From contig JAIXWR010000033.1 of assembly GCA_027491155.1 (NCBI GenBank), positions 1 to 64,000 of the forward strand: a stretch of DNA of 64,000 bases, read 5' to 3'. The translations under genes and the position numbers were made by a program. The stretch comes from Verrucomicrobiaceae bacterium. GTDB taxonomy: Bacteria; Verrucomicrobiota; Verrucomicrobiia; Verrucomicrobiales; Akkermansiaceae. Below, piece after piece: positions 714 through 3,700 of the stretch. Position 1 is the first letter of the stretch; every line of letters starts with the position of its first letter. The notes below the pieces were generated by a model. It worked only from the letters and a program-made list of their open reading frames with translations. It was not told the origin of the DNA and made no database searches.

Positions 714-3700
714 TTAGCCGACCCAGGTGCGGGCGTTGCGGAAGAGGCGCAGCCAAGGCGCGTCTTCCTGGCCGCGCCAGGCGGGGGGCACGTAGCTCTG
801 CTGCACCACGCGGAACACGCGCTCGGGGTGGGGCATCATCAGCGTCACGCGGCCGTCGCGGGTCGTGATGGCGGTGGTGCCGAAGGGCGAGCCGTTCGGG
901 TTGAGCGGGTAGTGCTCGGTCGGGCGGTGGTGGTTGTCCACGTAGCGCGCCGAGACGAGACCGGAGGCGGAGAACTTCGCCGCGGCGTCGGTGGACGGGA
1001 ACTCGGTGAAGCCTTCGCCGTGGGCGACGGCGATGGGGAGCACGCTGCCCTCCATGCCGCGGAAGAGCACGCTGGGGCTCTTCTCGATGAGGAGCGAAGC
1101 CACGCGGGCCTCGAAGCGTTCGCTCTGGTTTTGCACGAAGCGCGGCCAGTTGTCCGCGCCGGGGATGATTGAGTGCAGGTTGCTCATCATCTGGCAGCCG
1201 TTGCAGACGCCGAGCGCGAAGGTGTCGGGCCGCGCGAAGAAGGCGGAGAACTCGTCGCGGGCGCGGGGATTGAAGAGCACGCTCTTGGCCCAGCCTTCGC
1301 CGGCGCCGAGCACGTCGCCGTAGGAAAAGCCGCCGCAGGCCACGAGGCCGCGGAAGTCGCGGAGGGATACGCGACCCGAGAGGATGTCCGTCATGTGGAC
1401 GTCGACGGCCTTGAAGCCGGCGCGGGTAAAAGCCGCCGCCATCTCGACTTCGCCGTTCACGCCCTGCTCGCGCAGGATCGCCATCGGTGGACGGGGGGCG
1501 GTTTTTTTGGCCACGGAGGGCACGGAGGTTTTCACGGAGGCCACGGAGACCGAGCCGTCGCTTCCGATGCCTTTCTCCGTGCTCTCCGTGTTTCTCTCCT
1601 CAGTGACCTCCGTGACGAAATCAAAAGTGATCTTCGGGTTGATGCCGGGGTTCTTCGGATCAAGGCGGAGCGCATGCTCTTGCTCGGCGCACTTCGGGTT
1701 GTCACGCAGGCCGGCCATGCGGCGGGTGACGTCGCTCCAAATGTCGCGGAGGGCAGTGAGCGGCTCGTTGAGCAGTTCGCGACCGCCTTGGCGGACGACG
1801 AAGGCGTGGTGCGAGTTGAGTTCGCCGATCTGCGAGACGCAGGTCTTCAGGCCGTTGGCGCGGAGCACGGCGGAGACGTCGTCGAGGTCGTCGGCGCGGA
1901 TCTGGATGACGGCGCCAAGCTCCTCGGCGAAGAGCGCGGCGAAGGCGTCGGCGGCGACAGGCAAATCGAGGGAAACACCGGTGTTGCCGGCGAAGGCCAT
2001 CTCGACCGCGGTGGCGAAGAGGCCGCCGTCGGAGCGGTCGTGGTAGGCGAGGAGCTTGCCCTCGCTACCGAGTTGCTGGATCGCGTTCCAAAAACCCTTG
2101 AGCTGGGCGGGGCTGTCGACGTCGGCGGGGGCCTGGCCGGTCTGGTTGACGACCTGGGCGAGGATGGAGCCGCCGAGGCGGTTTTTGCCCTGACCGAGGT
2201 CGATGAGGAGGAGCGTCGTTGCACCGGCGTCGGTGACGAGCTGGGGCGTGAGCGACTGGCGGATGTCGGTGACGGGCGCGAAGGCCGAGATGATAAGCGA
2301 AAGCGGGGCGGTGACGCGCTTCTGCGCGCCCGTGTCCTTGTCCTTCCAGACGGTGGACATGCTCATCGAGTCCTTGCCGACCGGAATGGTGATACCGAGC
2401 GCGGGGCAAAGCTCCATGCCTACGGCTTGGACGGCGGCGTAGAGGTCGGCGCCGTCGCCGGGGAGCGCGGGCGCGGCCATCCAGTTCGCGGAGAGGTTGA
2501 CGCGGCCGATGTCGCCGACCTGGGCGGCGGCGAGATTGGTGAGGGCTTCACCGACGGCGAGACGGGCGGAGGCGGCGGCGCTGTTGACCGCTACGGGGGT
2601 GCGTTCGCCCATCGACATGGCCTCGCCAGTGTAGACGTCGAAGGCGGCGGCGGTGACGGCGCAGACGGCGACGGGGACCTGCCAGGGGCCGACCATTTGG
2701 TCGCGGGCGATGAGGCCGGTCACGGTGCGGTCGCCGATGGAGATGAGGAAGGTCTTGTCCGCGACGGCGGGGTGGCCGAGCACGCGGCGGGCGGCCTCGG
2801 CGAGTGTGACGCCGTCGAGCGCGGGCGTGAGCGGGGCGAGCGGGCGCGCGAGGGTCTTGTCGGTGCGGTGCATGCGCGGCGGCTTGCCGAGCAGGACCTC
2901 GAGCGGGAGGTCGATGGGCGTGTTCTTGAAATGCGGGTCATCGAGGACGAGGCGCTTTTCCTCGGTGGCCTCGCCGACGACGGCGAAGGGGCAGCGCTCG
3001 CGTTCGCAGAGGGCGGCGAAGGTGGCGAGACGCGCGGCGGGCACGGCCATGACGTAGCGCTCCTGGGACTCGTTGCACCAGATCTCGAGCGGAGACATGC
3101 CGGGCTCGTCGTTGAGGAGGGCGCGGAGGTCGAACTTGCCGCCGCGGCCGCCGTCGTTGACGAGCTCGGGCAGGGCGTTGGACACGCCGCCGGCGCCGAC
3201 GTCGTGGATGAAGGAGATGGGGTTCTCGTCGCCGAGGGCCCAGCAGCGGTCGATGACCTCCTGGGCGCGGCGCTCCATCTCGGCGTTGTCACGCTGCACG
3301 GAGGCGAAATCGAGGTTCTCCTGGCCGGAGCCGCTGGCCATGGAGGAGGCCGCGCCGCCGCCGAGGCCGATGAGCATGCAGGGCCCGCCGAGGACGATGA
3401 GTTTATCACCGGGGCGGATCTCGCCCTTCTTGATGTGGCCCTCGCGGATGTTGCCGAGGCCGCCGGCGAGCATGATGGGCTTGTGATAGCCGCGGATCTC
3501 GGTGGCGGAGGGGGTGACGGAAAGCGCGTTGGGGACAACGCGCTCCACCGGCGCGGGCACTTCCTGCTCATAGGTGCGGAAGTAGCCGTTGATCGCGGGC
3601 CGGCCGAACTCGTTGTTGAAGGCGGCGGCGCCGAGCGGGCCGTCGAGCATGATGTCGAGGGCGGAGACGATGCGGCCGGGCTTGCCGTGGTCCTGCTCCC

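Follow-up and report, generated by a model that had tools for sequence, protein, structure and literature searches.

An in-frame foldback in a PurL linker and its probable origin in the inverted repeats that bound GxxExxY genes

Rickettsia palindromic elements (RPEs) are repeats of about 150 bp that form several families, and according to the cited passage many of them lie in frame in genes of unrelated function (PMC10969869). Repetitive extragenic palindromes (REPs) of the GTAG/CGTC type have been described from within genes in Opitutus terrae and in R. conorii, and for Opitutus the sections cited here suggest that intragenic copies are neutral where they fall in flexible linkers or loops (PMC3733652). 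The same sections describe TIRtrons, in which tyrosine transposases lie between terminal inverted repeats (TIRs) that vary per element, some of these TIRs being genomic repeat families as well (PMC3733652). In Ca. Thiomargarita nelsonii, miniature inverted-repeat transposable elements (MITEs), one of them in hupL, were proposed in the cited excerpt to derive from an element with a YhgA-type PD-(D/E)XK_2 protein (PMC4853749). Here we explore a palindromic array of CACGGAG/CTCCGTG units inside a gene for PurL (phosphoribosylformylglycinamidine synthase, large type), in the first 64 kb (hereafter the window) of a 201,750-bp contig (G000:C36) assigned to a Verrucomicrobiaceae bacterium. The array is probably a gene-less, MITE-like foldback copy of the TIRs that bound elements carrying a GxxExxY gene. 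As a palindrome inside a protein gene it is a fresh example of a known phenomenon; the link with GxxExxY is the new part. The features referred to below are as follows.

714..4796, minus strand: PurL, 1360 aa; frame open throughout, carrying the in-frame insert
720..1493, minus strand: GATase_5 (glutaminase) domain, after the insert (Pfam residues 1102-1359, converted to coordinates)
1506..1620, no strand: foldback element in full, its outermost arms (inverted repeat I1, 83% complementary) at 1506-1528 and 1598-1620
1509..1549, plus strand: left arm, four CACGGAG units starting at 1512, 1521, 1533 and 1542
1550..1573, no strand: gene-free loop of 24 nt between the innermost arms (from inverted repeat I5 and the sequence)
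1574..1616, minus strand: right arm, CTCCGTG starting at 1575, 1584 and 1608, with the variant CTCAGTG at 1599
1509..1616, minus strand: translated insert, residues 1061-1096, directly before GATase_5 (108 nt, 36 codons)
2214..2252, minus strand: second PurL linker (linker 2), residues 849-861, empty in the window PurL

The initial annotation had described a hairpin-forming array inserted in frame in PurL before the glutaminase domain, and this is what the open frame, Pfam and folding show. Five PurL-type domains were found in the frame (FGAR-AT_N, FGAR-AT_linker, AIRS_C, FGAR-AT_PurM_N-like and GATase_5). The foldback of 115 nt has arms that are 83-94% complementary, forms a single hairpin and is non-coding by itself apart from the PurL frame. 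The fold of 1506-1620 has a z-score of -4.97 as DNA and -6.69 as RNA, equalled by none of 200 shuffles in either case, and the element is the sole cluster of at least two units within 60 nt in the window. The annotated addition of about 36 residues corresponds to the 36 codons of 1509-1616; measured between anchors, the first linker of the window PurL (linker 1) has 95 residues versus 62-70 in 16 insert-free relatives, a net gain of 25-33. A separate assembly (L194), 96.5% identical at the DNA level over 3,283 nt, holds the same insert with one edge residue changed, so the insert is no assembly artefact; the two are common by descent.

Bin G000 encodes a second PurL on contig C31, 29-31% identical to the window PurL in long segments, and 17 same-genus genomes match the window PurL at no more than 37% in segments of at least 100 residues, with shorter conserved segments of up to 63%; one of the 17 (G006) gave no match. 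The closest proteins are L194 (98% over 856 residues) and L195 (93% over its first 860 residues), followed by L182 (88%), L183 (87%) and L077 from genome G057 (84%). The picture is the same when the purL-purF stretch is aligned with L183, L182 and L077. Judging by these comparisons, the contig is probably misbinned: its PurL fits Opitutaceae-type genomes and is not the only one in the bin.

Of 46 PurL rows examined, three gave no linker and L077 comes from the same genome as L205, which left 42 linkers. At linker 1, 16 are insert-free, 12 carry an insert of the CACGGAG family (eight clear, four degenerate and judged by eye) and 14 carry another insert or repeat, the latter labels being partly assigned by eye. 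The eight clear inserts (window, L194, L183, L202, L205, L206, L188 and L214) share one TE/SV reading frame. Several of the 14 others are different short-period repeats, for instance CATTGGTCATTGG in L182 and L195; L191 and L212 of this class may be ordinary linkers or remnants. Sister PurLs L182 and L205 hold different insert families. On a FastTree phylogeny of 43 PurL proteins, from which the linkers had been cut beforehand, the minimum number of changes was 13 for the state of linker 1, seven for the CACGGAG family versus the rest and four for linker 2, counts in which gain is indistinguishable from loss. The second linker likewise takes such inserts, CACRGAG-type ones being recognised by eye in six genomes (L195, L202, L206, L213, L215 and L221). 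The annotation's view of a mobile-type repeat tolerated in a domain linker is thus supported by presence, absence and replacement at one site together with the multi-copy status described below, movement itself being deduced from these patterns. One identical linker throughout the relatives, lacking the DNA pattern, would have spoken against it; this was not seen among the 42 linkers, 16 of which are empty and 14 of which hold something else.

The inserts differ in how well they fold and in how far their other copies could be traced. Over 31 linker regions of at least 45 nt the fold z-score ranged from -8.7 to +1.6; four of the other inserts reached at least +0.3 and family members L205, L214 and L217 lay above -2, so not all inserts are good hairpins today. 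In 100 kb from each of four genomes, 12-mers of the L182, L190 and L192 inserts had no clear second copy and those of the L223 insert had one plausible copy, a total of 4 versus 2.85 in the shuffled control; with 300 kb each, the L182 type gave one more array in G069 and the L192 type one in G092. Compared with whole GxxExxY and Y1-transposase loci, the inserts of L193 and L224 match beside a GxxExxY gene (scores 23 and 24, versus 19 and 15 for Y1 loci) and that of L189 matches an array about 1 kb from one (24, versus 15). A score of 24 was likewise obtained for L191, at a GC-rich place remote from any arm, which shows that whole-locus scores of this kind can arise by chance. In linker 2, L205 (the same genome as L077) has other repeat types, GTTTAAGTTTAA/AACTTAAAC, and L224 has the peptide GTGVPPVG...HGRDARAT, which we take to be a frequent translated repeat.

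Copies were counted with a strict pattern, CACRGAGNNCACRGAG, and its reverse as control in 76 genomes (G057 and relatives). The pattern gave 1,519 matches, distributed over 46 genomes, versus 9 for the control. A GxxExxY gene is present in 44 of the 46 repeat-bearing genomes (all except G086 and G096) and in 10 of the 30 repeat-free ones, and repeat count correlates with GxxExxY gene count (Spearman 0.50, uncorrected for kinship or genome size). The genomic copy number raised by the initial annotation is therefore high in relatives; bin G000 has no further copy of the repeat, which is uninformative because the contig looks misbinned.

The same annotation held that such repeats normally lie between genes, which is likely and in part borne out. 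Among 63 array instances (55 loci of G092, G095 and G057; L168 and L170 overlap, so that one is counted twice), 28 are spanned by no frame and the other 35 have 47 listed spanning frames. Six of these 47 were given to Pfam: four have a domain, always starting after the array, and two have none, so that no domain was found around the array in the six. Twenty-five candidate complete gene-less elements have on average 3.56 of six frames open versus 1.94 in composition shuffles, an excess that helps to explain the survival of in-frame copies; one of them (L244) is identical to the PurL insert of G097. In another arrangement, L168-L170 (G057:C23), direct CACAGAG array copies lie about 1 kb apart with a GCGGGATCTGCGA-type motif adjoining.

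We take the GxxExxY family (PF13366/TIGR04256, PDDEXK_3) to be predicted PD-(D/E)XK nucleases. Its association with the repeat began as a guess and was then tested against loci of Y1 transposases. Within about 1.5 kb of fetched flanks, CACRGAG arrays occur at 14 of 30 GxxExxY loci versus 1 of 30 Y1 loci, and at 11 of the 14 they lie close on both sides of the gene. Among the remaining GxxExxY loci, other inverted-repeat families take their place (CACGAAG, CGCAAAG, CGCAGAG, CGCAGATGGACACAGATG and CACTGATGAACACTGATG). Next, a stricter bracketing score was applied to matched inverted repeats of any family, with a cut of at least 12. In the first set 21 of 30 GxxExxY genes reached it, in the second 17 of 26, together 38 of 56. 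The second set, 26 loci across the phylum, was fetched after the prediction had been made and had been cleared of four loci that the first set also contained; two of its members (L327 and L343) belong to family f9, sampled by the first set too, and both sets consist of top-scoring matches, not random samples. Controls reached the cut far less often: with flanks swapped, 13.8% in the first set and 7.4% in the second; after shuffling, 0.2% and 0.08%; and among pseudo-genes taken at Y1 and PurL loci, 0.9%.

Bracketed GxxExxY genes also occur outside the phylum. Eight plasmid records from other phyla were scored, one read per record out of ten places: two score 16 and 21, a Treponema record scores 11 and five fail. 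In one failing locus (L392) the right arm lies, by eye, inside the open frame. Among viral contigs of IMG/VR, an alignment query found three GxxExxY loci, of which L386 scores 19; two single GxxExxY proteins as queries found none there, and a search for GxxExxY in phages gave no match. All 13 aligned GxxExxY proteins have E27, D67, E77-x-K79 and Q91, presumably as expected of an active PD-(D/E)XK nuclease, going by family knowledge and the Pfam name. Profile comparison with solved structures gave no credible match (best E 0.14), and a structure model built from two sequences had a mean predicted local distance difference test value (pLDDT) of 37.8 and was not used. Three more of the failing plasmid records, from Persicobacter, a Fusobacteria bacterium and Prevotella (L394, L395 and L396), have by eye similar short-period repeats to either side of GxxExxY, oriented as direct and not as inverted copies.

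PurL inserts and GxxExxY elements were also compared directly. In G061 the PurL insert (L183) and the genome's own GxxExxY element L280 align for about 42 nt, an arm of the insert against the downstream arm of the element; with a score of 28 this is the best of 56 loci, the next locus scoring 22. L280 is the best partner of the L202 and L205 inserts as well (29 and 26), and the L206 insert has its TTAACCACGGAG end in common with element L268 of the same genome. The window insert shares with GxxExxY arms the CACRGAG-type arm sequence, a similarity at the level of the family, and its loop of 24 nt holds no gene, so that it could be at most a gene-less derivative of a GxxExxY-bounded element. It shares with MITEs short length, lack of coding capacity and terminal inverted repeats, many dispersed copies in relatives, and, at the level of the repeat family, ends in common with a gene-bearing element.

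The preferred reading, a gene-less copy of GxxExxY-element ends, implies the following course of events. An ancestor of the lineage to which the window belongs would have acquired the foldback in the linker that precedes the glutaminase domain of PurL. The foldback may have been kept there by virtue of a length and frame that left PurL open, in a linker that would tolerate 25-36 extra residues. In the simplest model the GxxExxY nuclease would act on its own arms when these are extruded as a hairpin, and could act in trans on gene-less copies, for example by cutting their extruded hairpin; such copies would be retained within genes only where frame and linker permit. We infer a moving unit that is mobilised in trans by the GxxExxY nuclease, and a PurL protein that still works.

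Several results weigh against this reading. Matched pairs scoring at least 12 were absent from 18 of the 56 GxxExxY loci. In IMG/VR, L387 scores 6 and L388 scores 7, the frame of the latter breaking early so that the gene end was not located. For the window insert three GxxExxY elements tie at 21, so that none stands out as its partner, and the L206 insert scores 27 against L263 of another genome and only 25 against its own L268. Repeat count also follows the number of Y1 genes (Spearman 0.39, equally uncorrected), which makes the case for GxxExxY a little weaker. By the bracketing score, with the same cut of at least 12, inverted repeats are present at 9 of 21 usable Y1 loci, which belong to a known mobile class (another nine of the 30 were dropped as short, without a suitable frame or with too little flank), so inverted repeats by themselves do not identify the enzyme. 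The 38 repeat-bracketed gene-bearing elements showed no target-site duplication, the longest direct k-mer immediately outside them averaging 3.26 nt versus 3.07 nt for swapped ends; a usual cut-and-paste transposase is hence unsupported, and we write MITE-like rather than MITE. A short way upstream of gatB, at most 600 nt from it, are 12 of the 56 GxxExxY genes (L262-L268, L280, L282, L285, L320 and L321), whose arms vary; this recurrent or long-held site agrees with long residence no less than with mobility. Finally, no movement was observed among the compared loci, and foldbacks could also spread by template switching without GxxExxY.

Some of these points are equally what would be seen if the foldback is of a mobile type and the GxxExxY gene between its repeats is a passenger, regulator or defence gene, copies arising by template switching during replication or through another recombinase. 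We consider this doubtful, yet it is the alternative to be taken most seriously. It would account for the lack of target-site duplications, and no GxxExxY locus was caught having moved. The arms at the 12 gatB-site loci match within their own element with a median of 16.5 versus 10 when swapped between elements; such a better match is what arm recognition by an enzyme or, for a passenger, foldback correction would predict. Set against this, GxxExxY genes turn up repeatedly within arms that belong to many different sequence families, across the phylum and in two or three of the eight plasmid records from other phyla, which is much to ask of a passenger.

A classical REP or bacterial interspersed mosaic element moved by a REP-associated tyrosine transposase (RAYT; Y1, HUH) was also considered as the origin of the foldback and is improbable. 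Y1_Tnp genes are present in 58 of the 76 genomes, their number tracks repeat count to the extent given above, inverted repeats flank the nine Y1 loci just mentioned, which we read as the known TIRtron architecture, and intragenic REPs are on record in the cited sections on Opitutus terrae (PMC3733652). The test on Y1_Tnp loci nevertheless disfavoured this candidate, arrays of the family being near a single one of 30 as opposed to 14 GxxExxY loci. The foldback arms are arrays of 7-nt units and not a single short stem, and there is no GTAG/CTAC in 1490-1640. As to a GTAG/CGTC REP tag, CGTC on the minus strand (1614-1617) touches the base of the stem but is mostly paired in the predicted fold, and it is absent at that place in L183, L188, L202, L206 and L214.

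That the linker grew locally by slippage of short repeats, with no insertion of an interspersed element, agrees with units spaced mostly 9-12 nt apart and with relatives' linker DNA of varying length, but is scarcely credible for halves that are inverted copies with a fold z-score of about -5 to -7, which slippage does not give, and for a sequence family interspersed in relatives. Equally remote is co-option of the insert under selection, as a longer or more acidic linker or an mRNA hairpin tuning PurL: the insert is conserved between the window and L194 and the eight clear members keep one frame, but L194 is too close to reveal constraint, and in close relatives the site is empty or quite differently filled, which means that the content is not conserved.

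Compared with the described systems, the gene-less copy of GxxExxY ends that we favour shares with RPEs a palindromic repeat inserted in frame in a protein gene, and the placement in PurL, whose function is here predicted from its sequence, would resemble that by which RPEs are recognised. RPEs belong to another phylum and the cited passage on them mentions no GxxExxY link (PMC10969869); in the present case several repeat families have entered a single enzyme, at two linkers, and the likeness drawn is one of description. Unlike the Opitutus REPs, the foldback lacks GTAG, has multi-unit arms and is linked to GxxExxY and not to a tyrosine transposase; in the main text of that report purL, CACAGAG and CACGGAG are absent (PMC3733652). 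With TIRtrons, GxxExxY elements share one small nuclease-type gene between element-specific TIRs, but the enzyme is a predicted PD-(D/E)XK nuclease and no HUH/Y1 transposase. The Thiomargarita MITEs are likewise tied to a PD-(D/E)XK-containing element; in the cited excerpt, however, the nuclease belongs to PF12784/TIGR01784, the hupL MITE ends in 10-bp direct repeats and its host gene is reported as incomplete or fused (PMC4853749). Open-access literature searches turned up no account of this repeat family and none tying such repeats to GxxExxY, which the papers found mention in passing only.

A wider proposal is tentative, possible rather than probable: CACAGAG-like short-period foldbacks of environmental bacteria could be the ends and gene-less copies of one broad mobile class driven by GxxExxY PD-(D/E)XK nucleases, neither DDE nor HUH, with linkers of essential proteins such as PurL recording their insertions. 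If so, a large class of unexplained bacterial repeats would gain a candidate enzyme. The present locus also contributes a further bacterial lineage where a single essential enzyme visibly takes up and changes palindromic inserts in the same linkers, and the repeat explains stretches rich in TE and SV in predicted proteins, among them the extensions at the ends of some GxxExxY frames. Several of these frames include a translated arm (TTENTEDTE, SSRLRVNQ), at the N-terminus in L263, L267 and L280 and at the C-terminus in L392, so the annotated start or end of GxxExxY genes can be contaminated by the repeat.
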